DNA from: Spirogloea muscicola
Lineage: Eukaryota > Streptophyta > Zygnematophyceae > Spirogloeales > Spirogloeaceae
Direction: 5' to 3'
DNA: 64,000 nt
Assembly (NCBI GenBank): GCA_009602725.1
Contig: WELB01000042.1
Coordinates: 607,092 to 671,091 of the forward strand
Shown here: in pieces, positions 2,918 through 62,900 of the stretch
How positions within the stretch are numbered: position 1 is the stretch's first letter
Layout of the letters: the number at the start of each line of letters is the position of its first letter
The notes under the pieces: generated by a model
What the model was told of the DNA's origin: nothing
What the model saw: the letters and a program-made list of their open reading frames with translations, nothing else
The model's database searches: none
Program-made: the position numbers and the translations under genes

Positions 2918-4110
2918 ATGGCTGTCCTTCAGATGACACCATGGGTTCTCCCGCCCCTTGGCTACTCTCTAAGGCTCTCCTTCCCGCCTGAAACCCGGGC
3001 TTACCTTCGTACACGCCAATTGGTGCTCGGGACTCGTCTTGTGTCACCGCAACAGAATCTGAGAGAGCGGAGACACCTTTGGAGGGGTGTCTGGAGGGCA
3101 CTGCTGGGAGGCACGGGTGAGGATGCTGCTGATGGCTCAGAGGACTCGGCGGCAAGTGAGGGCCGGGACAGCGAGCAGCAGCAGCCATGGCAGGGTGCAC
3201 TGTTCTTTCGGCGGGGCAGCAAGGGCCGCCACCTGGAGCTGGCCTCGACGCTGGAGCGGCTGCATCTGACGAAGCTCTCTTCACAGCTCTCACTGGACTT
3301 GGCCCTGCAGATGGGCCTCAAAGATGCCAGCATTCGTGTTGACAGAATTGACGGTCGCAATGATGGCGTCGAAAGCGGCAGCGGGCCCACGCCTGTGCTC
3401 GTCTCAGTGGATGTGGAGCAGGATGGTGCTGACATCCGGCTGGAGGGGACTTTACAGACGGCCATCACTGTGAGGTGCAACAGGTGAGGGCCAAATGTAC
3501 TTGCTCAATTGTTTGCTGTGAATGGGCTTAGGACCCTAATGCTTAAGGACTAATTAGTTGTCCCTTTTCCAGGAACAGCCGGTCAGCTGATAGTCATGCA
3601 ATACAGCTTGCGCAGAGTACGTGGCTCAGCCCTGGCGCTATCTATTGCCCCCACAGGTGCTTGGCGCTGGTGGCAGAGCGTGTGCTGGCGGATGTCAGCC
3701 TCAAACTTACGGAGAGGCTCGTAGAGGAGCCAGCGGAGCGCAGTCTCGGCGTTGTCCTGAGCAAGGACAGCAGCTGGGCTCCCAGTGATACCGATGAGCC
3801 TGCTGATGGCGTGCTGGACATTGACCTCGATGACCGGCTTCACTTCCCAGCGACTGCGCAGGAGGTTGATATCTCCACATACATTCGTGACTCAGTCCAC
3901 CTAGAGATTCCAATCAGAAAGCTGTGCCGGGAGGCCTGCCGGGGCCTCTGCATAGTGTGCGGAGTGAACCTGAACAAGGCGCCGTGCCGCTGCAAGGCCA
4001 GCCCAGCTTCCACGATCGGCTCACAACACACGAACAGGCAGTGGGGGCTGCTGGAGCAGCTGAAGGCTCAGATGCAGGACGAAGAGAAAAGGAGACAATC
4101 TGGATCTTAG
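2918..4110 (+). CDS. DUF177/YceD-type large rRNA accumulation protein, plastid
   Basis: Exons 2918-3483 and 3657-4110; the intron splits an Arg codon within the motif VRCNRCLALVAERV. The first exon gives a basic, Leu-rich N terminus suited to plastid targeting; the start is the ATG at 2918 or the in-frame ATG at 2933. The middle holds the beta-rich 'L.GTLQTAITVRCNRCL' segment and the C terminus the family signature CREACRGLCIVCGVNLNKAPCRC, a cysteine cluster typical of DUF177. Bacterial YceD and its plant counterparts are needed for 23S rRNA accumulation. The C terminus is a charged helix (QLKAQMQDEEKRRQ). The gene is convergent with the helicase downstream, with about 530 bp between the stops. 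An acidic/Gln-rich insert (about residues 65-90) lies between the N terminus and the core. Confidence 0.88.
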
Positions 4111-12408: not shown

Positions 12409-13129
12409 CCGCGACGGGGCTCGCCGGGCCGGCTCCAGGCTGCGTGCGACGACGTTCGAGCTCAGCTCGGCCACGTCGCGGCCGCCAGAGGCGGCGCGGC
12501 TCGCGAGCAGGAGGACCAGGGCCGGCGTGCCTCCCGCCGCCGCGGCCGCCGCCGCCGCCGCGGCCGCCTCCGCAGCCTCCGCCGCCGTTAGCTCGAACCG
12601 GTGAGGCCTTGGTGAGCTACTAAGTGTCCTGCTTGGTGACACCGTCGATTGGGAGGGCCGGCGCGGCAGGCGCGCCAGCCCTGTTGGGGGGCCCACAAAT
12701 TATGTCGACCATATGTCTTGATGATCCATACGGCACCCGCCGCCGAGCGGGCGGGCGTGGCACATTTAACCAACCGACCCTTTATGATCCGCGAACGTCG
12801 ACGGCAACTTTACTTATGGCCAGCGGCCCTCCTCTGCGCTATTGTGGCGCTGCCGTGGGATATATCCGACGGAGCCCCCACTAGACACGTTAGAAGCTTT
12901 CCTCAGCGTCCCCCTGCTGTACTCGCCGCGACGGCGGCGGTGGCGCCGCCGCCGCCGCTCTCGTCCTTTTGCCGTCCCTGGCAGAGGTCTTAGACCGCAC
13001 CTTAGCCGCAGGCGGGCCGCGGCAGTCAGCCTTGGACAGGCATGGCCGGCACGGCAAGCTGCGGGCTCATCCCAACTCCTCGCCATTCGGCCTCCGGCTA
13101 TGCCGCCGCAGCGATCAGCAGCTCGACAT

Positions 13130-13177
13130 AGGGTTTAGGGTTAGGGCTTAAGGATTTAGAGGATTAAGGTTTAGGGT
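13130..13177 (+). promoter_or_regulatory. Telo-box cluster just upstream of murF start
   Basis: TTTAGGG/TTAGGG units, several degenerate, end 17 bases before the murF ATG at 13194. The position (5' UTR or core promoter) resembles plant telo-box promoters. Smaller related motifs lie at 11995-12006, in the first helicase intron. The regulatory role is inferred from position. Confidence 0.5.
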
Positions 13178-13193
13178 CTGTGGCCGCGCCCAT

Positions 13194-15765
13194 ATGGGGC
13201 ACCTCTTGCGTACCTCCCGGCTGCCGGCCATCGAGACGAGCCGACTGCCGCACCCAACAATTCGCTGCGCTGCGGGCATACTACGCTGCCGCTCGGGCCT
13301 GACGCATCCATGGCCGGACGGCGCGGGCGGCGCCATGCTCCGCGCGGAGGCTATCGCGGAGGCTGTGCGCGGCACACTGCTGCGCGGTGGACCGTCCGGG
13401 TGCATCTGCACGGGTGAGCAGCAAAGCTGGAGCTTGTGCAGCTCGTGGTGGCATTGCAGCTCGCTGACCCGCCCCAGTACTTGCTCCTCAACGGAGCACA
13501 GAGAGAACTCAGCTCCACCTTCGAATTGCCGTCGCTTTTCCGTGGGTGTGACAGCTGATTGGGCTGCTTGTCTGAACAAATTCTTGGCCACCTGTTTCCC
13601 CTCTGCCCTTGGAGAATTGACTTCAAAGTTTCACAATGCAAGCACTCACTTCGCTATTCTTGCCATGTCATCATGTCCTTTGACTTGCCTAAGTTTGTCT
13701 AGCTTTCCTGCCACCGCCTGTTCTGCAGATACTCGGAAGCTATGCCCAGGAGACTGGTTCTTGGCCCTGCGAGGCGCCAACTTCGACGGGGAGGAGTTTC
13801 TGCAGCGCGCTGGAGATCTGGGCTGCGCGGGCGCCATTGGAACAGCCCTCCCCTCCCAGTGGCCGGCTGGGTTTGTGCAGGTCGAGAATGGGCTGGTTGC
13901 GCTCCAGCAGCTTGCAGCCACTGTTCGGCGTGCTTTTCCGGGGCCTGTGGTCGCCATTACCGGCAGCTCAGGAAAGACGACGACCAGGTTGAGTCTCATC
14001 AAGCTCGGTGCTCCACAGATAGCCCATGCATGCCTTAGCACCTCTGTGAACCACACCAATATTGTTTGTTACTGGTGTATAATGTAGTCCTTTTGGTGCA
14101 GGTGTAATACAAGATACTAGAGGCAGACTGTCGTTCTGCAGTATGAATCAATGATTTCTTGGCTGCAGCAGATAGCGATAGAGGAGCCTGCCTCATCACA
14201 TGCTGAAGTTTTGGGTCACTACAAATGTGTGTGCAGGGCCATGACTGCTCTGGCCCTGCAATCGCTTGGTCATATACATAGTACATCGGGCAACCTTAAC
14301 AACCACGTGGGGGTCCCACTGACGCTGTTGGCGATGCCGTCCTACTCAGCAGCATGCGTGTTGGAGCTTGGCATGAATCATGCTGGGGAGATTGCAGGTC
14401 TGTCATGCCTTTTATCTTACATGTGCCGCCTGCTGTTGTTTGGACACCTGGCGCTGTTGTGCATTTTATTGACATGTAGCTTCTCCAGCCTCCTTTCCTT
14501 ATCTGACTTGGCCCTGCACCTAATGTACTCCTACATAGCCAGAGCTGGCCGAGATAGCTGCACCAGATATTCGCTTGATCCTGAACGCTGGGCCGGTTCA
14601 TCTGGAGGGCGTGGGCACTGTTGCTGATGTGGCACGAGCAAAGGGCGAGCTCTTCGCAACAGCGAGATCTGGCGATATCTGCATCGCAAATGCAGACGAT
14701 GCACTGATTGCCACCCTCCCCATCCCACAAGGAACCACAAAGGTGGTTGAAGCAACCTTCTGTACACGCTGAAGAAGTTGGCTATGAGTTGCTCGTAAGT
14801 CACTGTGCCCATGAAGTACTTGGAATGATCAAGCAGGTCTGACAGTTGTATTTCTGAGGTTGATATTGCAGGTTACATTTGGAAGCCAGCCAGACTGCTT
14901 AGTGCGTCAATTGGATGTGAAGCCAACAGCGAGGGGACGCGGGCTGAGAGCTGCATATCTGGCGAGGCGGCAGCTTCTAGAGCAAGCTTCAGTGGATGGC
15001 AAGCAGGAGCCCTCACCACAGGGAGATACGGCGGCTAGCAAGCAGCCGGGCGAGACGGCAGAGGTGGAACTCGACAGCCCTGGGCTCCACTTGGCAGGCA
15101 ATGTCAATGCAGCGCTGGCTGTGGCGGTCTGCTTGGGAGTGCCTCTCTTGGCAGCTGCAGAGAGGGTGTCTCGTTATGTTCCCGTGGGGCGCAGGATGAG
15201 GCTGGAAGATGTTGTGCTTGGCGCCGGCCGTAGAACGGCCTCACAAGAGCATAGTGAACGCGCACCAGCTCAAGCTGAGCAGGCCAGCTGTGTGGACGTA
15301 GTTGGTGGCGATCAGGACTTTGTCATCCTCCTGCTGGATGATGCCTACAATGCCAATCCAATGAGCACCCGGGCAGCGCTCGAGCTGCTGGCGGGCCTCG
15401 AATGCCCTGGAAAGCGCGTGGCGTGCCTTGGGGACATGCTGGAGCTTGGTTCGGCAAGTGTGGACGCTCATTGCCAGATCCTGCAGGCAGCGTGCAGCTT
15501 GCGGATGGACATGGTGTGCCTGACGGGAGAGTGCTTCCGAGAAGCTGCCACATGGTGGGCGAGCAGGCCGGACGCCTCTTCGATGGCCTGCGCTTGGGAG
15601 CCCTGCTCAGCTAAGCTCGCAAGCATGGCGACCGCCCTGCTAGGCCCAGGGGACGCTGTGCTTGTGAAGGGCAGCAGGGCAATCCGCATGGAACAGGTGG
15701 CAGATGCAATCCGGCGTCTCCGGCAGCCAAGCTCGGAGCTCCACCCTGCACGAGCTTGCTCGTGA
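13194..15765 (+). CDS. murF: MurF: UDP-MurNAc-tripeptide--D-Ala-D-Ala ligase
   Basis: Five exons join in phase: 13194-13413, 13729-13987, 14237-14397, 14543-14742 and 14872-15765, giving 577 aa. This enzyme adds D-Ala-D-Ala to UDP-MurNAc-tripeptide, the last cytoplasm-type step of peptidoglycan precursor synthesis. Visible family motifs: DTRKLCPGDWFLALRG (uridine-binding domain), the P-loop VAITGSSGKTTT, SGNLNNHVGVPLTLL, LELGMNHAGEI, ILNAGPVHLEGVG, DDAYNANPMS and CLGDMLELG, closing with LVKGSRAIRMEQV. Bacterial MurF is about 450 aa. The excess is an N-terminal Arg/Ser-rich extension of about 45 residues, suited to a plastid transit peptide, plus inserts in the central domain (around 'QEPSPQGDTAASKQPGE'). 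The start is the first ATG of the open frame. Algae and mosses with such genes use them for a plastid envelope wall or plastid division. Confidence 0.93.
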
Positions 15766-20853: not shown

Positions 20854-21832
20854 TCAGCTGGAGGCAGCAGATTCTGCCCGAAGAGACGGTAAAGCAGCAG
20901 TGGCTTTCTGGGAGCCGGTGAGACGGGCAAGGATGACGAACGATGAGCCACCGAGGACGTTGTTGATGCCTCGCAGTGCAAAGACTGTGACTTTGAATAC
21001 GTTTGGGCTGAGCTTGCGCGCCAGCAGCGTCTCAAGGCCATTGAGGCTCTGGTATCGCAGATTGGAGGAGATGCCCATATGGAGCGCCCAAGTGGCGGCG
21101 TTGAGCAGTGCCGGCGGCGGCGCATTCGCGACGAACTTGGGGTCCATCTTACGGCGTATTGCGAGAAGCGTGTTGGACAGCACCGTGCCGCCAAGGCCTG
21201 CAGCAAAGCCCACCGTTGCAAACTGCACGCCCTTGTACACAGCTGTGCCCGCGCGCTCGGCTAGCGAGAACGCGCCCTTCTCAAACATGTGCCCTGTGGG
21301 GCTGTTTGTGAAGATCCCTGGGAGGTCTGCAAAACTCCAACAAAGAGGATAGCAGGAACTGTCATGCATTCCATTTCGGAGCTTGAGCAATACTTTGTGC
21401 TATCAGCGAGGCACAAGCCGTCTTCACCATGCAAAACGTTTGTTTCACATTCTTCTGGCTGGCACAGTGGCAACGAGTGCGGACCTCAACACCTTGGCAG
21501 CCTAGAGTACAACAGAGGCAGGAGGGCTAGCTCGGCACTCACGCTCGGCAATGGCAGTGGAGGACGCGGTGGGCGCAAGGAGGAACATGAGGGAGAAGTT
21601 GAGGATGGAGCCGACGACGAGCGTGGAGAAGACAAAGTCCAACTCCCCAAGGCCGTAGTTGGGCCGGGACGCCATGTCCCCAGCAACGCACGCCGAGACG
21701 CCGATGATCTGCTCGGTCAGCACCTTGAATACAAACTGCGGGTCAGCGGCAACGCGCTCGTTCCACCCCTGCAGCGCCATCGCCAGCGCCCCGCCGAGGG
21801 CGGCGGGGCCCGCGGCGCTGCCGCCGTCGCCG
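20854..21832 (-). CDS. RETICULATA-related (DUF3411) plastid envelope protein, 5' part lost in gap
   Basis: Two minus-strand exons are visible: 21832-21543 (continuing into the gap) and 21326-20854. The first reads DPQFVFKVLTEQIIGVSACV, then ASRPNYGLGELDFVFSTLVV and ILNFSLMFLLAPTA. The second begins LPGIFTNSPTGHMFEKGAFS and includes a VGFAAGLGGTVLSN membrane segment and WALHMGISSNLRYQSLNGLE. These are the hallmark blocks of plant RETICULATA/LCD1-type DUF3411 proteins of the plastid envelope, linked in plants to leaf development and plastid metabolism; the biochemical role is not settled. The donor is GTGAGT and the acceptor TTTTGCAG. Transit peptide and start codon lie within or beyond the N run. 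A Gly/Ala-rich stretch precedes DPQF. Confidence 0.88.
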
Positions 21833-22466
21833 NNNNNNNNNNNNNNNNNNNNNNNNNNNNNNNNNNNNNNNNNNNNNNNNNNNNNNNNNNNNNNNNNNNN
21901 NNNNNNNNNNNNNNNNNNNNNNNNNNNNNNNNNNNNNNNNNNNNNNNNNNNNNNNNNNNNNNNNNNNNNNNNNNNNNNNNNNNNNNNNNNNNNNNNNNNN
22001 NNNNNNNNNNNNNNNNNNNNNNNNNNNNNNNNNNNNNNNNNNNNNNNNNNNNNNNNNNNNNNNNNNNNNNNNNNNNNNNNNNNNNNNNNNNNNNNNNNNN
22101 NNNNNNNNNNNNNNNNNNNNNNNNNNNNNNNNNNNNNNNNNNNNNNNNNNNNNNNNNNNNNNNNNNNNNNNNNNNNNNNNNNNNNNNNNNNNNNNNNNNN
22201 NNNNNNNNNNNNNNNNNNNNNNNNNNNNNNNNNNNNNNNNNNNNNNNNNNNNNNNNNNNNNNNNNNNNNNNNNNNNNNNNNNNNNNNNNNNNNNNNNNNN
22301 NNNNNNNNNNNNNNNNNNNNNNNNNNNNNNNNNNNNNNNNNNNNNNNNNNNNNNNNNNNNNNNNNNNNNNNNNNNNNNNNNNNNNNNNNNNNNNNNNNNN
22401 NNNNNNNNNNNNNNNNNNNNNNNNNNNNNNNNNNNNNNNNNNNNNNNNNNNNNNNNNNNNNNNNNN
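21833..22466. other. Assembly gap (634 N)
   Basis: A run of N within the 5' part of the RETICULATA-related gene. It is bordered on the right by a poly-C run of about 24 bases (22473-22498), a likely reason for the failed assembly. Confidence 0.99.
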
Positions 22467-43562: not shown

Positions 43563-46500
43563 ATGATGGCAAGTGGATCAGCTCGGCGCTGGGCCGTGCT
43601 TGCGCTCCTGGTAGCGGCCGCGCACACAGCCAGCGCTCAGTTCGACTACGCCGACGCTCTGCAGGTATGACCAGCCAGCCACCGTCCACCTCCTTGATGC
43701 CGGTACCACGAGGGTGCGCCATTGATGCAATGCTTTCGGCACTCCTGCGCTGTCACCAGCAATGTGAGCTAATGTGATTGAGTACGCAAGGTTTGCTAAC
43801 ATATAGTTACGGAGTTATTGTCCTGCAGAAGAGCATACTCTTCCTGGAGGCACAACGGTCGGGCCCACTCCCAGGCCCGAGCTCGCCCCGTCCGCAGCGC
43901 ATGGGCTGGCGAGGAGACAGCGCGCTTACCGACGGCTTTGCTCCTCCTGGCATGGTATGCGCCAATGACTAGTAGCCTGTACAAGCTTTTCGAGATGATC
44001 TAGCAAAGTCTGCATTTTGAGGCTTTGCCAGCAATGCAAACACTCCATGCAGCTGCATGGGGATATTGTTTTATCACAGCGTCAAGGAAGAGAGACAAGT
44101 GACCAGCGTTGCTTAAACCCGCCCTGTGATAGCAAGTTTTGGTCTGTCTTGTTGTCGCCGCCCTTTTGAGGCTACTTGAAGTCAGTTGCTGAGGCTTTCA
44201 TTGTACTTGTGCCCCATTGTGAAGCTCGATCTCGTCGGCGGTTACTACGACTCAGGTGACAATGTCAAATTCAACTTCCCCATGGCTTTCTCCATAACGA
44301 CACTTGCCTACAATGTCATCGAGTACAGAGCACAGCTCCAACAAGCAGGGCAACTAGATGTAAGCATTTTGGCAGCCCTCCATTGTTTGTTGTGATAGTC
44401 GTTTGCAATTTGTAAGTTGACTGATGTCGACCAGGTCTATCCATCAATGCACCATACCTCCTTTCAGATGATTAGCTGTGTAAATAGGGGTCAATGTTGC
44501 AGCCGCTACAGGGCTACAATGGCATACCTGACTACTAGATTCCATGTAACAGTATGCGCTTGATGCCATCCGGTGGGGCACTGACTACCTCCTCAAGTGC
44601 CACTCAGCACCCACAACACTGTGGGGGGAGGTACATCCCCGCTTTCCACCAGGCTACACTTCAAGACCTCGGGCTGCTCTGAATGTGCTAATTCAGAACT
44701 TCGTTTTTGACTCTCTGCCACGCCATACCTGATGTCCATGTTAATCGCGTCAAGGAAGTCTAAACTTCACTAGCGCTGCACCTGGTGCAGGTTGGTGAAG
44801 GACAGAGCGATCACAGCTGCTGGGCTCGACCAGAGCAGATGAAGACCCCTAGGACTCCGTACCAGATCAACCAAACAAGCCCTGGCACAGAGCTTGCGGC
44901 AGAGACAGCTGCAGCAATGGCCGCTGCCTCTATAGCTTTCCAGTCTTCGGATCCGACCTATGCGACCACCTTATCAGCCCACGCTCAGCAGGTAAGTTGC
45001 TTAGCTGGGTTGTTGCCTTTTGCCTATTGCCGGGATCGGCAACGGACTATGGCTGATCCTGGAAGGCCATCTTCAAAATCGCAGCAGAGACTGATGGACC
45101 TCTTGCAGGGGTGCCAAAACTAGTGTACTAATGAGTGTACTAATGACTATGCTTGGCTGGGAGCAGCTCTTCACCTTCGGTGATTCCTTCCGCGGAGACT
45201 ATGCACAGTCCATCAGTGTTGTCTCTGGCTTTTACAATTCATTTTCAGGATATAAGGTATGTGTATGCTCGCGCTCATGTTTCCAGGATGTCAAATTTTC
45301 ACCATTGTTGAGGCAGTGATTGACGCATAGTGCAAGCATGGGTGACAACTTAGCTTCGCAGCACACACACGCTCTCTGCTAGCTTGTCCTTTGACCAGGA
45401 TGAGCTACTGTGGGCCGCTGCTTGGCTGTGGTGGGCGACCGGCAAGGACACATACCTACAGTACTGCGTGGACAATGCCGCCAGCTTTGGTGGTACCACA
45501 ATGAGCAAAGTGGAGTTTTCTTGGGATGACAAAATGGCCGGTGCTCAGATCCTCCTCACCAAGGTCGTCTGCAGCACCAAAAATAATAGCTAAAGCTTCA
45601 ACGCTGTGCAGCAAGTGTATGGCCCAGATCGGCTAGGTGCTATGGAGGGTGCTGTCAATCAATCTGATCAGTCTCACCAGACCAGATTTTGCCCTGGACT
45701 GGTGGCTGCAGATATTGCTACAGAACAAGGCTGCTCCAGCATTTCAGAGCACTTTAGCCACGTACAGGCTGCGTGCCGAGGACTTCGTTTGCGCAGTCAT
45801 GCAGGCTGCTACAACTGGGCAGCAAGTTCAACGCACGCCTGGTAACCCTCAAACAGACGTTGTTGTGGTCAGCTGTGCTGTTTATAATGAGCTGCGCTGC
45901 AGAGAAGGGTAGCTTGTTGTGACTATGTGCAGCTCAGTCCTGCCACTACAAATATTTGTCCATGGACAAGGGCACGTTGTGTGCCGGCTGTGTGCCGGCC
46001 TTAGACTCTTTATGTGCATGAGATATTCTCATCTTTTGACATTTCTCTGGCAATGGCTGCTGCAGCGGGGCTGATCTATGTTCGGGAGTGGAGCAACTTG
46101 CAGTATGCCGGCTCAGCCACAATGCTCATCACAATCTATGCCGACTACCTGGCAGCTGCTGGTCAAAGCCTGACATGTGGTACCCGAAGCTTTTCACCGG
46201 GTCAGATTCTTGCTTTTGCAAAGACGCAGGTGACCATCCTCTCCATGTGCATCTTCTCCATCTGCATCTTCAAGACATGCCTTGACAGAATGCTGGTGCC
46301 CAAGGCTACTGCTCCATCCATGATGATTAAAGCGTGCGTGTCTTTATCATCAGGTGGATTACGTCCTTGGAAACAACCCGCTCAAGCTTAGCTACATGGT
46401 TGGATTCAGCTCCAACTACCCCACCATGGTCCACCACCGCGGTGCCTCGACCGTGAGCATATTCCAGGACCCCGAGGAGTTCTCCTGCAACGACGGCTTC

Positions 46501-48569
46501 AACAAGTTCTACTACAGCAAGGCAAATATCTATATCTGCTTGCAGACCTCCATCGTGACCTATACATACCACAGACTTGCACTGCGTGGAAGTCAAGTGC
46601 ACTATTTCAGGACCATCAAGACAGATTCTGATGGTGCTCATTTTCGCATGCAGGGCCCAAATCCGAACGTACTTATTGGATCCATCATTGGGGGCCCAGA
46701 CGCAAAGGACGGGTTTGTGCAGAGCCGCCAGAATTTCATGCAGTGCGAGCCGTCAACGTACCTCAACACGGTGATCGTGGGCCCGCTGGCCAAGATCAAC
46801 GACGGCGCAGTGCCGTCGTCGCCGGCCAACTTCACGCTACCCAGTACGATACAGCCCGCCAACCCCCCACCGCCGCCGCCATCGCCGCCGCCTTCGCCTC
46901 CACCGGGCTCCGGTCCACTGCCGCCGCCATCGCCGCCGTTGCCTCCGCCTCCGCCTCCATCACCGTCCCCGCCGCCATTCTCCCCGCCGCCACCATTCCC
47001 GCCGTGCAGCCCACCTTCTCCACCTGACCTCTCTGCGTCCTCCCCGCCGCTGCCGCCACCGCTGACACAGCTGTCACCACCACTGCTCCTGCCGCCACCT
47101 CCTCCACCGCCACGGCCTCCTCCGCCACCTCCGCCGCTGCCCATTGCTGGAACTTCACAGCCGCCACCACCTCCGAGCTCACCATACATTAAGACTACGC
47201 TCCAACCACCACCACCCCCGCCGCCAGCCCCACTTGTCACACGCCCACCACCACCTCCGCCACCTTTGCCGTCACCATCACCGCCACCGCCGACGCCGTC
47301 CACGCCGCCGCCGCCACCGCCGCCGCCACCTTCACTATCCCCAATGCAGTTGCATCCCCCGCCACCACCGGAACTGCAGACCTCTCCTCCTCCTCTGCTG
47401 CCACCTCCATCATCAGCCTCAGCAACTCCACCTGGTGCGCTCCTTGTGACCATCGTGGTCCCATGGGGACGCTGTGACTCTGCCAACTGCTTTCTTTTCC
47501 ACATGCCATGGCACTGCTACCTCTGACTTACATGCCTTGCCAAAATCCAAATTGGTGCTACCGAAATGCTGAGCAGCTGAACGAATTCTTGCAGGGTGCC
47601 GTTATATACTATGTTATCATTACGAAATCATCTATTAGTATCTGCCAGGACCGAAGCAAGCTGCAGACGGGTTGCCGTCTAACGTCGTAACGACAAGCTT
47701 GTGGCAACGTCGTATGCAGTTGGCAAGAAGGCGCACAACTGCAAGAACCCGGCGCACTGCCCGTCGCTGCGCAGCCCGCCGAAGAAGGGCGGCCACCACC
47801 CGCCTGGCGTGGGCCACCGCGTGGGCCACCACCCGCCGGGCGTCGGCCATCACCACCGGCGCCTCCTGGCAGGGCCGCCGGTAGCGGCGTCACCAGTTAG
47901 ACAAGAGCCATTGCCATGGCGGCCGCTGGTCACTCGAGAGGAGATGGCACGACTGCCCCGAGTTGTCGTCCCAGCGGAGGTGGCGGCGGCGAGGGCGGCC
48001 ATGGAGGAGGAGGAGCAGCCCAAGACGGCGAAGAAGCAGCAGAATCTGCTGGTGCTCCCCTGTGCAGCGCCGCCGCCGCCGTCGCCGCCGCCGCCCGTCC
48101 CCGTGCCCCCTGGCGCCCCGCCTGCCCCCGGCTCGCCTGGTAAGCGCATGAAGCCAACCCCAAGACAAAGCTAACCCAAGCGGCCATGGAGCCATGGGGT
48201 CTGTGCTGCTGGAAGGCCAGAGCCTGACGTCCTCTGGCTGTGTGCTGTGCAGCGGCGGGCCTCGGTGAGACGGGCAATGCCCAGGTGAGCGTCCTGACGA
48301 CCACTTCTGGCAGCTGGGGCGCCTCCGATGGCGGCACCTTTACCAACTACGAGGTGACCGTCACGAACTTGGGTGCGCAGCCGATCACGTCGATCGGCAT
48401 CACTTGCACTGGCTTCAGCCCCACAGGGTCTTGGGGGATCACACAGGCTGGCACAATATGTATGTTGCCTAGCTACGTCTTCCCACTTGCGCCGGGGACA
48501 AAGTTCAGCTTTGGCTACATCCAGGAGAACACGCCCGCGCTTTTCCAGGTCTCAAGTGTCGGGCTTTAA
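43563..48569 (+). CDS. GH9 endo-beta-1,4-glucanase with Pro-rich linker and CBM49-like domain
   Basis: Exons: 43563-43664, 43829-43954, 44225-44359, 44553-44630, 44791-44991, 45167-45256, 45399-45563, 45712-45841, 46066-46229, 46354-46521, 46654 to about 47440, about 47698-48139 and 48253-48569. The start has a signal peptide ([20 protein letters not shown]). The inverting GH9 catalytic domain shows [18 protein letters not shown] (catalytic Asp pair), [49 protein letters not shown] and CEPSTYLNT (catalytic Glu). A long extensin-like PPPPSPPP linker (46858-47400) follows, then a His/Gly/Pro segment, a second Pro run and a C-terminal beta-sandwich ([20 protein letters not shown]...[10 protein letters not shown]) like CBM49 of plant class-C cellulases. 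It is probably secreted and acts on wall glucan. The linker-to-tail splice is unresolved, so 47440-48569 could be a second gene. The intron at 46522 starts GC. Confidence 0.85.
46858..47420 (+). repeat. Pro-codon-rich (CCN)n linker sequence
   Basis: About 560 bp of degenerate CCG/CCA/CCT repeats encoding SPPP and PPPP blocks, typical of hydroxyproline-rich glycoprotein linkers of green-lineage wall proteins. Codon degeneracy shows it is kept as protein rather than as a pure microsatellite. Confidence 0.85.
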
Positions 48570-50298: not shown

Positions 50299-50905
50299 NN
50301 NNNNNNNNNNNNNNNNNNNNNNNNNNNNNNNNNNNNNNNNNNNNNNNNNNNNNNNNNNNNNNNNNNNNNNNNNNNNNNNNNNNNNNNNNNNNNNNNNNNN
50401 NNNNNNNNNNNNNNNNNNNNNNNNNNNNNNNNNNNNNNNNNNNNNNNNNNNNNNNNNNNNNNNNNNNNNNNNNNNNNNNNNNNNNNNNNNNNNNNNNNNN
50501 NNNNNNNNNNNNNNNNNNNNNNNNNNNNNNNNNNNNNNNNNNNNNNNNNNNNNNNNNNNNNNNNNNNNNNNNNNNNNNNNNNNNNNNNNNNNNNNNNNNN
50601 NNNNNNNNNNNNNNNNNNNNNNNNNNNNNNNNNNNNNNNNNNNNNNNNNNNNNNNNNNNNNNNNNNNNNNNNNNNNNNNNNNNNNNNNNNNNNNNNNNNN
50701 NNNNNNNNNNNNNNNNNNNNNNNNNNNNNNNNNNNNNNNNNNNNNNNNNNNNNNNNNNNNNNNNNNNNNNNNNNNNNNNNNNNNNNNNNNNNNNNNNNNN
50801 NNNNNNNNNNNNNNNNNNNNNNNNNNNNNNNNNNNNNNNNNNNNNNNNNNNNNNNNNNNNNNNNNNNNNNNNNNNNNNNNNNNNNNNNNNNNNNNNNNNN
50901 NNNNN
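50299..50905. other. Assembly gap (607 N)
   Basis: A run of N inside the 5' part of the elongase gene, flanked by GC-rich sequence on both sides. Confidence 0.99.
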
Positions 50906-51479: not shown

Positions 51480-54400
51480 GTTGGCGGACGTCGAGGTCGT
51501 CAACCACCGGGAGGTGGACGATGGTGGCGCCGCCAGGGAGACTGTGGACGCCGACTCCATCCTCGAGGAGGAGGCAGGAGGTGAAGGAGGCGGCGGCCGT
51601 CAAGTCGACGCCATCACGGAGTTCGAGGAGCAGACGCGGGCGGTGGGGCGGAAGCTCGACGAGATGATGGAGACCGCGCAGGCGGACGGCGACGCCGACG
51701 CCATCCGAGTGGTCCAAGAGCTGCGGTAAGGCTCGAGCTCGGCGTTCGGCGACCTGGGTTCGAGTGGGCTTGCATGCACAGCGCAGACCCTTCCGCCGTA
51801 CTAATGGTATCCTGTAGAAGACCTTTTGCTTTGTGTAATAGTTACCATTTAGCAGAGTCCTGTGTTTTCAGTAAACATCTCATCCACCACCCGAGAAGGG
51901 CTACCAGAAGCGTCTCAAGCGACTGGAAGGGCCTGCAAGGGCGTCTGAGATCACTCATTCTTAGCCACGGCTTGGTGCAGCAAAGCGTGGAATCCAGATG
52001 AGATGATGGAAGCGCTGCAGGAGGCGCGGCAGCTGCGCGCCGAGCTGGAGGAGCTGTATGATGAGGTGATGGACGTATACGACGCGGGCGACGAGGACGA
52101 TGCGCGGCAGCTGGTGGAGGCCAACCTGGCGGCGCTGGAGGAGCAGCTGGCGGAAGGCGTGGAGGGCGTGGAGCAGGCGGCCATGCTCATGGTCCTCACG
52201 CGCCTCCGCATGGGCATGGGCGATGTCGAGGAAGTGGAGCCCCTGCTGGAGCGGGTCAGTCGTTCGTCAGCTTTACTGCTAAATTAACTCAATCGAATAT
52301 CCGTTATGTGGAAGATGAGCAGAGGCTCCGTTGTTGGTATGTAGTTGGTGGCCAACACGACTTATCTTGGCCGCCATGCCAGACCAGGGAGCTGGTCGAG
52401 AAGGTGGAGAAAGCGGAGCCTCTGCTGGACGACGTGCTGGACCACTTGGGCGACATGTACACAGAGACTGGCAGGCTGCAGGAGGCAGTGCGCTTCTACG
52501 AGCGCAGCCTGGCGGTACAGGAGGAGCTTCATGGTAGCTGCATGGCACAATGGCCTAATCCCATTAGTGGCTACATTGTCAATATAGGCTGGAAGTCAGA
52601 TACTTCAGTCCTGGTCTTCATGGCCCTTCGATCAAGTGAATGTGGACCTCCATAGATTCTTAGCAGATCAATGGAGCAGCCTCTTGTGCTCCGCATGTCA
52701 GAGTAGGTGTTTCGTCCATGTGCCCATTAAGCATTCAATAATTCAACTATTGCAGGTTCTTCAGAGGACCCTGAGCTCTCACACACGATGGTGAGCCTCG
52801 CCAACACGTACAACGCGATGAACGACCACAAGAAGGCGCTTGCACTGTACAAGCGCGCAGTCGAGATCACTGAGAACGCGCTTGGGCCTGACACGGATGC
52901 GCTCGGAGTGCTGCTTTCGCACATGGGCCATGCTTTACTTGCTGAAGAACGAGCTCAGGAGGCCGAGCTGGTCTTCCTTCGGTCAGTGGCATGGTCTCTT
53001 GCCTGATAATCTGCTCTCTGTCAGCAGGCTGGCAAGTCCATGAATGCGTAACAAGAATTCTGATGGCCCTGACCCACTCACCGTGTTTGCAAAAAGGGCA
53101 TTGAGGATCATTGAGAAGGCACGAGGAGAAGCCGACACTGCTGCCGGGATTGCGTGGTGCGGCGTTGGTCGTGCCAAGGGTGCTCTTGGTGTGTCTTTCT
53201 ATTTTGATTCCCTGATCTAGCACATTGTTAAAGACCTGGCACTATCGCTGCCATACATACAACAGCACAGGCAGAAGCAGACAGCTGACTGTGAACTCTG
53301 ATGCGTTGATCGCACGATCAGATATATCCAAGATACAATGCATTTGTACTGTATGCCAAGTTGTGAACACGCTTGGAGGTAGCAGCTTCATTGTTGCCTT
53401 GGGCTGGTGAAGGGGACTGTCTGGCCTGACCTTTGCCGATCTCTTAATCTAATATTTGTTCTCAATCTTATGGTGTCAGGGAATTACTTGGAGGCCATTG
53501 AGACGATGAGGAAAGGCCTTGGCATAATCGAGAAAAGTGAGGAGATGTATCCTGAGGACCCTGCCATGGTTGCGGCACGTTGTGATTTGGCAGAGCTCCT
53601 TCAGGTGGTGGGCAGGTATGCCCCACCGTGCTCTTCTTTACTGATCTGATCTGGTGCATTCCTTTACTAGTGAAGCTTGCAGGCAGTAGCAAGTGGTACT
53701 TTAAGTAAGCAGTGCTCAACTTGATAGCCTGATCAGCAGATTCCGAGCAGAAGGATGCGTTCTCATGAACAGTCAAATAGCACCTGCTTTGCCTCATATC
53801 AGAATCTCTTCATGATTCTGTCTTCTCCTGCAGCTTGGATGAGGCCATTGAGATATGGCAGGAGAATCTGCTCACAAAGGAGAGCGAGGTCGGGCCCAAC
53901 GACCCCGAGCTGGTCATGCACCTGCAGAGCCTGGCCACGTGCTACATGGCTGCCAAGAAGCTCGAAAAGGCGGAGCCCATCATCCGCCGTGCTGTGCACA
54001 TCATCAGGGAGAGCTTGGGCACCGAGTCGGTGCAGCTCTCAGTGCCCTTGGAGTATCTCTCCACCACTCTCCACAACTTGGGGAGGACACGGGAAGCTGA
54101 GGCGTATGCGAGGGAGGCCCTTGGCCTTAGGGAACGTGCTCACTCGGGCACGGATCTTTTTGTGGGTCAGTGCACACAACTTGCAGAAGCCCTTGGCTCC
54201 CTCTCCTCACTTGCAAGTGGCCTTACATCACAGTGTGCATTGCGCCCATGGCAGCTATTGCTCTGCCGCTATCTCGATGCATTGAGAGGCAAGCATAGGT
54301 ATCTCACTGCTTCTTGTTTGTCTCAGCACGGCCTCACATAGTCGATTGTTTTGGTATGCCGGCTGGCGTACATCTGCCAGGTGAGGCTTGCAACAACCTG

Positions 54401-55837: not shown

Positions 55838-58437
55838 TCAGCACGAAATGGTGGCTTGAGCTACAACGAGGGCTGGCTGAACCTGAAGATGCACAAGGGT
55901 GAGCCGGACGTAGCCACCAATGTAATAGCCTGGCGGCCGCACTGTTGGCCCGCTCAGCAGCAACAGTGCCTGACACTGGCCTGCCTGGCTGGTGTGCGAG
56001 TCCTCGCAGCCTGCTGCGGTCTGGCACAAGGAGCAGCTTGGGTGGGGCTCAAGACCGTCCAAGCAGTCATAGCGTTGAGCCTCTGAGGCGGTGAGCAGCG
56101 CAGCTGCCACCTCGACCTCCTCGCGTGCCACTGTCACTGTAAGCTTGTGTGCAGGTGCCAGGCCCGTGAGCAGGTCCAGGAGCTCGAGGGAGCGCACGGC
56201 CTGCACTACGTGACACACACCATCGGGCCAAGCAAGGCGCCGCCGGATAACCCCCTGCACGCAGGCAGGCGCTGAATGCCATGCCTTAGCTAACGGCCAG
56301 ACATGGTAGGCCTTCTGATGAGAGCAACCTCGCTGACATCTACTACTACTGACTCCTGCTACTCCAGTGGCAGCTAGTCGCACCAGGAGGGGCTCCACAA
56401 GCTCGGCCTCGTAGACGAGGTCGCTGCCAATGATGACGTCGTAGACATCCTCTGGCACCAGGCGTGGGCAACCACCATAAGTGTCCGTCCCCGCCTGCCA
56501 TATACACTCCCTGTCAGATTGAAGATCTCCGCTAGGAGACCGCTACAAAAAGATTACTGGAACTTAAAAGTAGGCTTAATCTACTAGGCTTCATGACAGG
56601 GTAATTCAACGTCCTCACTACGTTATGCAAAAAGTCATGATCCAAGCCAAAGCTTCATCAATCACTTCCAATTTCTTGTTGTATTCCCTTAGTAACTCTG
56701 CTCGAGAGAAAGATAAGGGCCTTGTAGCTCTGCCATGGAAGCAGGGGGCTGATCAGATGGGCGCACCAGTGCTGCATGCAGTGGAGTGGCATCGTGCCCT
56801 AGGCTGGTGCTCGTGTTGTCCTCAACCCACTCCAGGAATCGCACCTTGACGCAGCTGCTGGCAAAAAGGTGGCCGTCACCGCCACCGCCCCTGTTCCCAG
56901 TAACACCATGTCTCGCTGCCGGTGCTTCGACTGGGCCCCATGACCAAGACCATTCATCTGCGCAAGAAGCAGTCGGCCCCTTGGCATTGCTTCTGGCACC
57001 AAAGTGCGTGCTGGCTGGGAGGAGGTGCACTGCAGCAGCCAGGTTGTCCAGGATGGCGGGGACGCAGTCTGTCAGTGCCACCTCGACGGCGCCCAGCTGG
57101 GCGGCCAGCAGCCCGCAGAGGCCGCAGCCGGCACCGAGCTCCAGCACGCGGCGCCCGCGCACCGCTTCTGGCGCCGCCCGCAGCTGGGCTGCCAGCAGCA
57201 GCGCAGCACCCCAGACCTTCCATCCCAGGCCTGCGTCATGGTAAGGCATCTCCAGGACCTGCGGCATCGGCAGCGGCAACATGGTAGATGCGGACGCGTC
57301 AGCGGCCGTGCTCTGGCGGTCACACTTGCCTAAGTACAAAATCTCCACCACTGTGACCCTGGTCCTTAACCCAAGACAATTGTTCAAGCCATAAGCCCTG
57401 GAGACTGTGAACTGGGCCGGTGCTCAGAGCTAAGAATGACATAACCCTGCTGAGCTCCTCTGGCTGAGGTAGAGCGCTCAGCATGGCGTCTCACCGTCAC
57501 TGCCACTCCGTCGAACTCGAACAACTTGGTCGCGGCAGCCGTTGCCGCCGTGGTGCCGGCGCAGGCGGCGACGAGCGCCGCCAGCGCGTCGAGCAGGCGG
57601 CCGTCGTCCTCCGACGGGCCCAGCAGCCGTACCGCGAGCTCGACGGCGCCACGCGCCTGGATGGAGGCTGCCGCTGCGGCGCTGGCAATGGCCGCCGCCG
57701 CCAGCGCCTCAACGGCCACCACCACGTCAATGGCAGTTGGGTATGGCAGTCGTGGGTTCAGACGGGCCATTGTGGCGTAGTCTGCCAGGAGCTGGAGCTC
57801 GGCGTCGACCCCTCCTCGGCGCGCCTGGAGCTGCGCAGCAGGAGGTGGGGTATTGGACAAGGCCGCCTTCGGGCAAGTGCTTACAGTCAAGCACCGCCTT
57901 GGGACTTAGACTGTATCTCACTGCGGACCAAGGGAATCTAACCCATATCCTTTGCTTGGAAAACAGACAGTTTGCCTTTAATCTATGCCCGCAAATGAGG
58001 TAGTGATCAGGGGCCTTAACGAAGGCCCCCCAAAGCCACAGGCACAGCAGCAAGTGCAGCAAGCCCGGGCATCGGAGACGGGCTTCGAGGCTCTGCGGAT
58101 ATTCTGCAATCACGTCAGGAGCCAACGACCTGGAACGCAGTTAGCTGGCCAAAGGGCAACGAGGCTCACGAGCGCCAGCGGTGGACGCATGCCGGGCATG
58201 ACGCAGGCCTCGACGAGAAGCAGCGTGGCGAGGAGTCCGGGGAATCGATCATGGGTGGGGCGCCGCCGGGGGCCCAAGGGCCCCCGGCGGCGCGACGGCG
58301 CCACCGGGGGCGGAGGGTTGACAAAGAAGCGGCTGCCGCAAATCGACAAAGGGTCCGAGGCGGCTGAGCGCCGCCAGATCCGACGCCAGCGTGGCCGCGA
58401 TCACCATCACGCGGCGCAGCCTGCGGCCCTCCGCCAT
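55838..58437 (-). CDS. Methyltransf_16 (METTL21-like) methyltransferase with helical N-terminal region
   Basis: A minus-strand gene; exon borders are approximate. C-terminal blocks: LEMPYHDAGLGWKVWGAALL then RVLELGAGCGLCGLLAAQLG (SAM-binding motif I), VALTDCVPAILDNLAAAVHL, VRFLEW, and PEDVYDVIIGSDLVYEAELV (post-motif II with the family's SDxxY), in exons around 57300-56800 and 56490-56340, ending in 56252-55838. These are the marks of the METTL21/Methyltransf_16 protein-lysine methyltransferases. Upstream (57850-57490) is an Ala/Leu-rich helical segment (ELAVRLLGPSEDDGRLLDAL, then a similar helix) resembling ARM/HEAT repeats, and further upstream AEYPQSLEARLRCPGLLHLL. A candidate start is MAEGRRLRRVMVIAATLASD at 58437. 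The 5' exons cannot be joined cleanly. The target protein is unknown. Confidence 0.72.
58260..58293. repeat. Perfect 16-bp palindrome, 2-base loop
   Basis: GCGCCGCCGGGGGCCC and its exact reverse complement flank AA. The GC-only stem would form an extremely stable hairpin or cruciform. It lies inside the putative first exon of the methyltransferase gene. Confidence 0.9.
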
Positions 58438-59976
58438 GGATGCCCTCGCAACGCCGCACCGGCAGGCTGCCAAGGCGAGGCGCGTTCCCTGAGGTCCCGC
58501 TGCGCGTCGCGGCGGCCCTCTGTCTATGCCTCGGGCGCTGCCTCTCTGCGTCCGCCGCGCCCGACTCGTGGGCGAGCCTCCAGCGGCCTGCTCTGGGAGT
58601 CGGGGCTTGGGGTTTAGGAGAGGTGAGCTCTTCCAAAAGGGGGCGGGGGGATGTGGACAAAGCCAGCCCTGGGAGGAATGAACAAGGTCCAAAGAAGAAG
58701 CTCGCCCAACTTAAGGTGGCTGGGAAAAGCCAGCCCAAAAAGCCTTGGACATGGTCAAAGGGCCAAAAGGCGCCAAAACCACACACCTATTGTAAGACAC
58801 TACAGCAAATTGGGAGAGTGAGGCTTTTTCCAGTAGAAGGGCGATGGCTCCGGCCAGCCCTGGAAAAGAATGGAATGGGAGCTTAGGAGTACGCTTCCTC
58901 AGGAACTCCGATGTAGCATTTAGCAGCCGCAAGTTGGAGTATCCTGTAGCTGGGGGTTTGGGTTTAGGAGTAAGAGAAAGGTGCAGTCTGCAGGGCGCCG
59001 ACGTTGAAGGGGGCGCTTCACGGCACGCTAACGGTGTGCGTTACTGGCGGGCTCCCGTCACTACCACGTGGCGGCCGATCATGCGCGCCAAGTTGCCGCC
59101 ATCCACGTGGCGTGCAGCCGCCCGGAGACCAAAGAATCAACGTGGGCGCCTGACCGGAAGATGCCAGCCTCCGGCCCCCGTGCGTCCCAGGGAGCCGGCG
59201 CGGCCGACCACCGACTGGCCGCCACGTGGAACGTCAGCTGAATCGCCCCCCCCGTCTCCCCAACCCTCCTGGCCCGCACTGGGCTTTCACTACCGTCCGT
59301 GCGGTGGGGGACCCCGCATTTCTCCACCGATTTTTGGGGGGTTGGTCTGACGGCGCAGGGCTGCCGATCTGCACCGTCTAGCTGAAGCGGGACGGCAGCG
59401 GTGCGCGGGGCTCCGCCAATGATGGGGGCCCGGCCCTTCCATCGGTGCGTCCCCCACCGTCTCCGCCGTCTCGCGTGCCCCTCGGCGGCGCCGCTGCCGC
59501 CGCCCCGCCCGTCACCTAGGCCACCTTTGCATATAGGAGCTTCGTTTCCTTCCTCCGTACATTCCTTGTGGGTTGTCCTCTCACAGAAGAAAGTGGCATT
59601 CCCAATGGGGGCAAGGGCTGTGAAAAGCCAGCCCGAAAAGAGTTGACAAAGGTTTGAAGGGGCCAAATGACAGCCATTGCCTGAATCAAGAAGCTGTCTC
59701 TTTGGAAGAGCTCACTTCTTTGCTCTGGTTTGTGCCTGAGCAGTGTGTTGGCTTGACTAAAATTGGCCACCGTTCAATTTCATGCGCACGGCTCGCCTTT
59801 CCCCCGTTGCCAAGCAGCGCCGCCGCTAGCCTCCCAACCCCCCGGCGCAGTGCCAGCTGCTAGCCGATCCCCCGCCGCCGCCGCCGCCGCTGCCGCCGCC
59901 GCCGCCGCGCGCGGCGCTTCTCGCCGTGGCGTTGACGGCGCCGCCATGGGGCTGCAGCCGGGTCTGGCCGTGCGGT
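58438..59976. repeat. Spacer with hairpin-family repeats and telo-like boxes
   Basis: Hairpin-family units lie at about 58655-58680, 58720-58738, 58845-58870 and 59606-59630 (the last almost identical to the copy at 28420). GGGTTTAGGAG motifs lie at 58611-58621 and 58953-58967. 59060-59520 is GC-rich without a recognisable gene. 59780-59976 should hold the promoter and 5' UTR of the translocase. Confidence 0.55.
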
Positions 59977-62900
59977 ATGTCGCCGACGCGGCGCACTTCC
60001 CCTACGGCGGCAAGCCGCCCGCCGCCGTCGCGGCACGCGCCATGGCGCTCGGCCGNGCCCCGGGCCTCGGCCGCCGCCGCCGCCGCCGGCGCCGCTCCGC
60101 AGGATCGGGATGAGGAGCAGCAGCAGCCGGAGGGCGATGGCCTGGTGGCGCCGTTCGCGGCGACGGCGACGGCGCCGGCGGCGCCGCAGCAGGGCAGCAT
60201 TTTCGGCATCCCGTACACAACGGTCAAGAAGGTGGTGCCGCTGGGCCTCATGTTCTTCTGCATCCTGTTCAACTACACCATCCTGCGCGACACCAAGGAC
60301 GTGCTGGTGGTCACCGCGCCCGGCTCTGGCGCCGAGATCATCCCGTTCCTAAAGACCTGGGTCAACCTGCCGCTGGCCGTCGCCTTCATGGTCGTGTACT
60401 CCAAGCTGGCCAACGTGCTGTCGCGCGAGGCGCTCTTCTACACCTGCATCTTCCCCTTCATCGCCTTCTTCGGCGCCTTCGCCTTCCTCATGTACCCGCT
60501 GCAGCACGTCCTGCACCCCACCGCGCTCGCCGAGCGCCTGCTCACGCAGCTCGGGCCGCGCTTCATGGGCCCCATCTCCATCCTCCGCAACTGGACCTTC
60601 TGCCTCTTCTACGTCATGGCCGAGCTCTGGGGCTCCGTCGTCGTTTCCGTCCTCTTCTGGGGCTTTGCCAACCAGGTGCCAGTTTTTGCCCTCCTGCCAA
60701 CACGCCTCCTCATTCAGGAGTTCCCATTGCGCCTGCTCAACCACAGGCATTAGTGAGGGTGTGCCCCCTCTAGCTGTCCTGCTTGAGACCTGGCCGCTTT
60801 GCCTCTTGCACACTATGTGCTTCATAGATGTATTTCCTTCTTCGTCACAGGCCTGACAAGATACTACTGAGAGACATGCATTAGCCCCTTGTGCAATCAA
60901 GTCTGTTGGTGTGTATAGGAACTGCTAGTGTGTTATTGCTCATCCGCCTACCTCTTACACTTCTCGCTGTGTACAAGCGGGTAGCTCCAGTCTCACAAGC
61001 ACAATACTTATCAATTGTTTACAAGCTGCTCAAGGAAAGGCATTATAAGCGCAGTGGTTGTCAGATTTGCGCCGCAACAAACAACTTTGCCATATCCGAA
61101 CTGGCCAACCCTTGCGGTCACGTGCAGCGAAATGCAGATGCACTGCAGATTGATGCTCTGCAGTGTGGCAGCGGTGGTGTAATACCTGCTTCTCTTCAAG
61201 TCTGATTCCCAGGGCGCTGCTTTTGCAGATTGTGACGGTGGACGAAGCGAAGCAGTTCTACCCGCTCTTCGGCCTGGGCGCCAATGTGGCGCTCGTCTTT
61301 TCGGGGAGGACTGTCAAGTATTTCTCTCAGCTGCGCAGCAAGCTGGGGCCTGGCGTCGACGGCTGGGCTATGTCGCTCAAGGGCATGATGTCGCTCGTTG
61401 TCGTGCTCGGCTTTGCTATTGCCGCCATATACTGGTGGGTTGTCGCCAATGTCGTCAACGACCCCAACCTGCCCAAGGTTGAGAAGAAGAAGAAGGTGAG
61501 CACTACTGCCGGCTAGCAGCAAGTTATCTATATGGCTGAATGACTTTGAAGCACCACGTATGCACTTGTTGCTGCAGTGGCAATGTTGCTAAAAGTAAGT
61601 TGGCTATACTCGAGCAGCAGGAAAGATCGCCGTCGTTGTCACTTCAGTGTAGGGGATTAGACCTGCTCTAGCTGAGCATCCTCGCTCTTTGGCCCTCTGC
61701 AGAAGGAGAAGCCAAAGATGAGCATGGGGGAGAGCTTCAAGTTCCTCCTTGGGTCACGGTATATTAGGGACCTTGCCACGATCGTAGTAGCGTATGGCAT
61801 TAGCATCAACCTTGTGGAGGTTACATGGAAGGGCAAGATCAAGGCCCAGGTGCTTGCCTGCCTCCCTCTCCAGCCCTTGGCTTGGTCTTGTACACCTTGA
61901 GATGTGTTGGACACTGGAAAATACAGGTGTTCAGGAGAGGCATCAGCCTTGCACACAAGGCTGGCAAATGAGTTGAAAGTAGCTGCAATAACTAGCTCGA
62001 TGTGTCGCTCGATGCGAAGGCAAGCGTAATGCATGCCTGCGACAAACAGCAAGTCCTGACAGTGGCAGCAAGTTTCCGACCCTGTTACTCAACAGCAAGC
62101 CCTCTCTGCGGTAGACAATCTGATTGAGTAAAGGCAAAGCATTAACGACCTCTCTCTGACCTGCTTCCTGCTCTCTGCATGCAGTTCCCAAATCCAAATG
62201 ATTACTCCTCGTTCATGGGCGACTTCTCAACGTACACGGGCATCGTGACATTTGCAATGATGCTTCTCTCGCGTGTCATATTCCGCAAGTTCGGCTGGGG
62301 CGTGGCGGCACAGATCACGCCGTCGGTGCTGCTCGTCACAGGCGTGGCCTTCTTCTCGCTCGTGCTCTTCTCCGCGCCCCTCACGCCGTACCTGGCATCC
62401 CTGGGGCTCACGCCACTGCTGGCAGCCGTGTACGTTGGCGCCGCCCAGAATATTTTTAGCAAGAGCGCCAAGTACAGCCTGTTTGACCCGTGCAAGGAGA
62501 TGGCCTATATTCCTCTTGATGAGGAAACCAAGGTGAGCTCAGCAAGGCAGCCTCAGCATGTGTTTGGGCCATCCTAAGTTTCTTGGTATCTGCCCTTGAG
62601 CAAGTCTGGCACAGACTTAATCATCTGTGGCGAACGTAAAGGTAGCCTGAATTTTATGCATCTCTGTAAGTCATAATATCAGCAAGGCGTTTGTGGATTC
62701 GGTGTTGCCCAAGCAGACCCTTATGAGATGGTGGAGGCTTGACCCTTGAGTGAGTCCTCCTAGTACTTGGTGTGGTGTCGGCTGTGGCAGAATATGATAG
62801 GAGCATATAGCACTAATCTTCAATGCTGCTGCGAGCAGGTCAAGGGCAAGGCTGCTATCGACGTGGTGTGCAATCCGCTGGGCAAGTCGGGCGGTGCGCT

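Follow-up and report, generated by a model that had tools for sequence, protein, structure and literature searches.

Spirogloea muscicola, by taxonomy a member of the Zygnematophyceae in the Streptophyta, carries an intact nuclear gene for MurF, whose product is very probably a plastid-targeted ligase; the Mur pathway around it is largely complete, has a class A penicillin-binding protein (PBP) as its final member and most likely serves plastid division. The gene is nuclear and bears introns, it has kept its active-site residues, and most of the other Mur genes accompany it in the assembly; the best reading is therefore a working plastid peptidoglycan route, as the first-pass annotation of the sequence had proposed next to a reuse of the ligase. 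That annotation had also spoken of a green alga, and the host is indeed an alga, more precisely a zygnematophyte streptophyte and not a chlorophyte. A plastid peptidoglycan route was already inferred earlier for the Zygnematophyceae, which the present gene fits: it belongs to a known plastid pathway, is ordinary and well preserved, and serves as a good example and not as a surprise. The new details are modest and comprise a linker insert before the DDAYNANP motif and a U11 snRNA gene that is divergent from all three MurF copies of the genome. With three intact MurF copies, MurA-MurE, MraY and pieces of a class A PBP, Spirogloea is an organism in which plastid peptidoglycan predating plants on land can be tested, and its MurF supports that view without changing it.

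The window, i.e. the whole stretch of 64,000 nucleotides that was analysed, corresponds to positions 607092-671091 of contig C42 in an assembly of 153 Mb and 471 contigs. The MurF gene occupies positions 13194-15765 of its plus strand, where five exons join in phase into 1734 nt encoding 577 amino acids and a stop codon, and all four introns are of the GT..AG type. The features are as follows, in window coordinates:

12651..12785, minus strand: U11 spliceosomal snRNA gene (Rfam RF00548, 59.6 bits), divergent neighbour, 409 bases from the MurF start
13194..13413, plus strand: MurF exon 1, with the start ATG, the N-terminal extension and the start of the MurF domain, in agreement with SM000042S15372
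13194..13331, plus strand: N terminus resembling a transit peptide, residues 1-46 (with 6 Arg, 0 Lys and 2 acidic residues in the C42 copy)
13729..13987, plus strand: MurF exon 2, containing the P-loop
13962..13985, plus strand: P-loop GSSGKTTT, residues 152-159
14237..14397, plus strand: MurF exon 3
14543..14742, plus strand: MurF exon 4, in which K247 lies within an AKGE stretch that aligns to AKGE in E. coli MurF
14872..15765, plus strand: MurF exon 5 and stop codon
14986..15033, plus strand: loop of low confidence in the predicted structure, residues 319-334, whose length differs among plants
15229..15309, plus strand: predicted disordered core of the linker insert, residues 400-426, from the alignment and the predicted structure
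15337..15360, plus strand: catalytic motif DDAYNANP, residues 436-443

The spliced protein is identical to the annotated EukProt protein SM000042S15372, which has the same span (s42:620285-622856, equal to 13194-15765 of the window). An acceptor of exon 4 two bases upstream of 14543 was rejected, as the reading frame is lost with it; the acceptor was set at 14543 because the frame is restored there. An alternative donor of intron 4, GTAAGT at about 14795, leads to an in-frame stop, and its counterparts in the two homeologs are GTAAGC and GTAACT. The donor used (AAG followed by gtgg) and the reading frame are conserved in all three homeologous copies. Chance as the source of this gene model is excluded. 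Thus, the five-exon, in-phase, 577-residue MurF first proposed from open reading frames is borne out by the splicing, the intron borders, the identical annotated protein and the family score given below, and the GSSGKTTT and DDAYNANP motifs are both found in the spliced product.

In a profile search the spliced protein scored 313 bits with the NCBIfam model TIGR01143 (murF), against a cut-off of 288.6, and Pfam assigned Mur_ligase_M and Mur_ligase_C to its middle and C-terminal domains. The top match among PDB sequences is E. coli MurF (1gg4, E 3e-54), with an alignment that spans the P-loop, NLNN, AKGE, DDAYNAN and KGSR stretches. We checked 20 positions across 67 aligned MurF sequences: K156, N181, E203, H233, R388, D437, N440, E471, K546 and S548 are identical in all 67, and the remaining ten in 61-66 of them (K247 and E249 in 62). 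K247, which we take to be the carbamylated lysine of Mur ligases, lies within AKGE in all three Spirogloea copies. According to the alignment, the P-loop, the Mur-type lysine, the catalytic motif and the C-terminal KGSR, to which we presume catalytic and binding roles, have all been kept. The claim of the first-pass annotation that every motif of an active enzyme is present agrees with these conserved positions, from which the protein would be expected to be active. An AlphaFold model built with 13 sequences (pLDDT 82.1, pTM 0.81; pLDDT below 50 at residues 1-37, 319-334, 400-426 and 567-577) is predicted to exhibit the three-domain fold of Mur ligases and to be closest to MurF among them. In the fold search of the PDB, ranks 1-10 are all taken by MurFs, including 4cvk (E 1.1e-37) and, at rank 9, 2am1, which is named MurF in the PDB sequence search; TM scores normalized by query length are 0.52-0.71. 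The protein shares with the bacterial MurFs of E. coli (1gg4) and P. aeruginosa (4cvk) a family score above the cut-off, the fold, the P-loop, DDAYNANP and KGSR, but it differs from them in being encoded by a nuclear gene with five exons and in having an N-terminal extension of about 46 residues and extra loops.

Homeologs of MurF are found on three separate contigs, C42, C8 and C39. The C39 and C8 genes have the same five exons, GT..AG introns and no stop, and encode 578 amino acids each; their P-loop reads GSSGKTTA, as opposed to GSSGKTTT in C42. Between the copies, exons are 85.9-95.8% and introns 81.8-90.7% identical. A genome triplication is mentioned for Spirogloea muscicola in a passage of PMC7994812, and three copies are what would be expected from it. 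Whole-gene dN/dS values for the three copy pairs (Nei-Gojobori) are 0.291, 0.237 and 0.260, falling to 0.159, 0.123 and 0.111 over residues 47-306, and they amount to 0.55, 0.74 and 0.51 over the loop 307-345; the three intact copies are under purifying selection. It is very improbable that this MurF is a relic of a decaying pathway with some of its copies drifting. The loci found after triplication are uneven in number (MurC, MurD, MurF and Ddl-like have three each, MurA, MurB, MurE and MraY two each, PBP has one and MurG none), which would agree with decay, but these counts are lower bounds, and all three MurF copies are full-length and free of stops, with dN/dS of 0.11-0.16 at residues 47-306.

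The N-terminal extension evolves differently from the enzyme that follows it. Residues 1-46 are rich in arginine and poor in acidic residues, and their dN exceeds that of the other parts of the gene in every copy pair (dN/dS 0.54, 0.56 and 1.19, from few sites), and residues 1-37 are predicted to be disordered, with pLDDT below 50. A fast-evolving, acid-poor leader preceding a constrained enzyme has the appearance of a transit peptide, so the N terminus earlier called transit-like gains disorder, composition and rate as further properties and keeps exactly that name.

The ancestry of the gene was studied with IQ-TREE on 67 sequences, of which 32 were taken from 80 bacterial loci and 32 from 148 database proteins, the other three being the Spirogloea copies; in two of the bacterial sequences, L050 and L093, translation of the match meets a single stop. 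Green-plant MurFs, including five unnamed proteins assigned to the plant group beforehand, form one side of a branch with support 98/89. Within it, Spirogloea groups with Mesotaenium (99/87) and the zygnematophytes with land plants (99/94), while P0004, an unnamed protein, joins the zygnematophytes weakly (94/38). The nearest named relative outside the Spirogloea genome is Mesen1 (49% identity), presumably Mesotaenium. The MurFs of Mesotaenium, Sphagnum, Marchantia, Selaginella, Cryptomeria and Mantoniella resemble the Spirogloea protein in their side of the tree, in an N-terminal extension before the MurF domain and in 43-51% identity. The nearest bacteria are 14 sequences labelled Myxococcota, Oligoflexia, Alphaproteobacteria or proteobacterium, or bearing no label, whose fork with the plants has support 100/99, and the Bacteroidota are distant. 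This differs from the moss MurF, described in a part of PMC9434261 as closest in identity to the Fibrobacteres-Chlorobi-Bacteroidetes group. The tree contains no cyanobacteria, and no cyanobacterial MurF was named among the best 80 of 592 confirmed bacterial loci. In L039, a Myxococcota metagenome-assembled genome, frames inspected by eye form a murE-murF-mraY-murD-ftsW-murC-ddl cluster with no murG between ftsW and murC.

The placement of Spirogloea inside green plants, in this tree of 67 sequences lacking cyanobacteria, excludes a recent bacterial contaminant, the outcome that the first-pass annotation had named as fatal to its proposal. Contamination or recent horizontal transfer is a reading of next to no probability: Mur genes are of bacterial origin, and the locus that matches best among bacterial genomes shares 44% identity with the Spirogloea protein, but the gene has four spliceosomal introns and homeologs on C42, C8 and C39, lies on a contig of 820,608 bases with plant-type neighbours, and is contradicted as a newcomer by its position among green plants. 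Among the best 120 database matches listed, 20 bear names that we take to be those of angiosperms. The loss of MurF from flowering plants, assumed at first, is consequently not general, and what stands is that no angiosperm is known with the full set of peptidoglycan genes, as stated in a passage of PMC12681378.

The other genes of the pathway were sought in the whole assembly by scoring each exon alone, so that most whole-protein cut-offs are out of reach and the numbers of loci are lower bounds. MurA was found on C106 and C10 (the N-terminal piece on C106 matches MurA with 9.8e-44 and EPSP synthase with 0.0058), MurB on C200 and C214, MurC on C71, C45 and C32, MurD on C38, C14 and C12 (three pieces on C14 match MurD best), MurE on C149 and C435, and MraY on C261 and C185. 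The sole PBP locus found, on C107, encodes a class A protein of which eight frame pieces match TIGR02074 in order, as separate exon pieces; three of them correspond to the transglycosylase domain, and those of the transpeptidase contain STFK, SLN and KTG, which we take to be its motifs. Ddl-like exons on C16, C223 and C345 are short matches to the N-terminal domain, below the curated cut-offs, and MurJ has one weak match, on C9. MurG was found neither with TIGR01133 or PF03033 nor with a bacterial MurG protein, in an exon-by-exon search of the assembly that is insensitive and, for the protein query, lacked a positive control. PF04101 matched at three loci, C184, C167 and C52, of which C184 and C52 were rejected as MurG, their frames being ALG13-like by eye. 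No MGDG synthase, an enzyme indispensable in a green alga, was among the PF04101 matches in the assembly either, and because of this the miss of MurG is weak evidence.

The canonical ten genes, listed as MurA-MurG, MraY, Ddl and PBP in a section of PMC10784329 that refers to 48 green genomes surveyed, citing Cheng et al. 2019, are thus represented in Spirogloea by eight clear members including MurF and a tentative ninth, Ddl. The main text of that paper mentions neither Spirogloea nor the word MurF, and PMC11135702 contains neither peptidoglycan nor Mur as whole words. The search for companion genes suggested by the first-pass annotation has yielded MurA-E, MraY and pieces of a class A PBP, whereas Ddl stayed below threshold and MurG was not found; a MurF standing alone with lost catalytic residues, the case that would have spoken against it, is not what the genome contains.

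This gene set also bears on the possibility, which we regard as unlikely, that MurF is kept for another plastid job, as a ligase or scaffold outside wall synthesis, with no peptidoglycan made. There is a precedent in seed plants, where MurE homologues serve in the RNA polymerase of the plastid, as treated in PMC9434261 and PMC12681378, and a plastid-encoded RNA polymerase structure (PDB 8r6s) ranks 19 among the fold matches of MurF; the miss of MurG in the insensitive exon-by-exon search points the same way. Against such a job, however, speak the conserved active-site positions, the purifying selection on the core and the presence of the early-step MurA-MurD together with class A PBP pieces, while the alternative function of MurE is discussed in PMC12681378 for cases in which most Mur enzymes, and MurA-MurD in particular, are missing from the genome.

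In the preferred reading of a plastid peptidoglycan route, MurF would be imported into the plastid and would use ATP to join D-Ala-D-Ala to UDP-MurNAc-tripeptide, the last soluble step in making the peptidoglycan precursor, and the largely complete pathway would terminate in the class A PBP. The polymer would most likely serve plastid division, by analogy with moss and, on antibiotic evidence, with the desmid Closterium, itself a zygnematophyte, in which ampicillin, D-cycloserine and fosfomycin block plastid division according to a portion of PMC3398972. Excerpts of PMC9434261 report that the moss makes UDP-MurNAc precursors and has an active MurE, that MurE of Mesotaenium was also used, and that streptophyte MurE has an acid-rich N-terminal region. 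Such a region is present in the C435 copy of Spirogloea MurE, and this, together with the gene set so far as found, likens the Spirogloea pathway to that of Physcomitrium, from which it differs in that MurG was not found, Ddl is tentative and the route is deduced from genes.

The three Spirogloea copies have 50-51 aligned residues in the linker R388-D437, P0004 has 52 and Mesotaenium 79, as opposed to 15-20 in the other 62 of the 67 MurFs, other streptophyte and prasinophyte proteins among them. The insert before DDAYNANP is thus confined, among these 67, to Spirogloea, Mesotaenium and the unnamed P0004, and the residues at its core, 400-426, are predicted to be disordered. Linker length was taken from the alignment, since a measure by regular expression could read only 112 of 148 database proteins and gave one false value of 374. 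It is conceivable, though unlikely, that zygnematophyte MurF gained a flexible insert which was kept through the triplication in all three Spirogloea copies as a class-specific regulatory or docking element, one that might link MurF with MurE, for instance, or with the machinery of plastid division.

Several further features of the surroundings deserve mention. A full-length U11 snRNA gene lies beside each of the three MurF copies (in the homeologous loci at L037 6140-6278, plus strand, 57.2 bits, and L038 4552-4688, minus strand, 52.4 bits), with conserved ATCCCAC and CCATAA blocks upstream that resemble, we assume, plant snRNA promoter elements; such a gene points to a U12-type spliceosome in Spirogloea. 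Degenerate TTTAGGG-like repeats at 13127-13180 stand directly upstream of the MurF start, and similar ones occupy the same place in both homeologs. Elsewhere in the window there are matches to YceD (3547-4110, plus strand), RETICULATA-like (20854-21399, minus), TPR (53781-54341, plus) and Methyltransf_16 (56689-57423, minus), which, judged from these matches, are plant-type nuclear surroundings of MurF. Runs of N occur at 21833-22466 and 50299-50905, and a similar stretch precedes the MurA match in L131. One open frame (46327-47526, plus) runs from the end of a glycosyl hydrolase of family 9 into a long proline-rich stretch, a tRNA-Gly (TCC) lies at 57921-57993 (minus), and an exon of a plastid-type ATP/ADP carrier, of another family that intracellular bacteria also have, is found at 59830-60753 (plus; Pfam TLC, E 1.3e-69).
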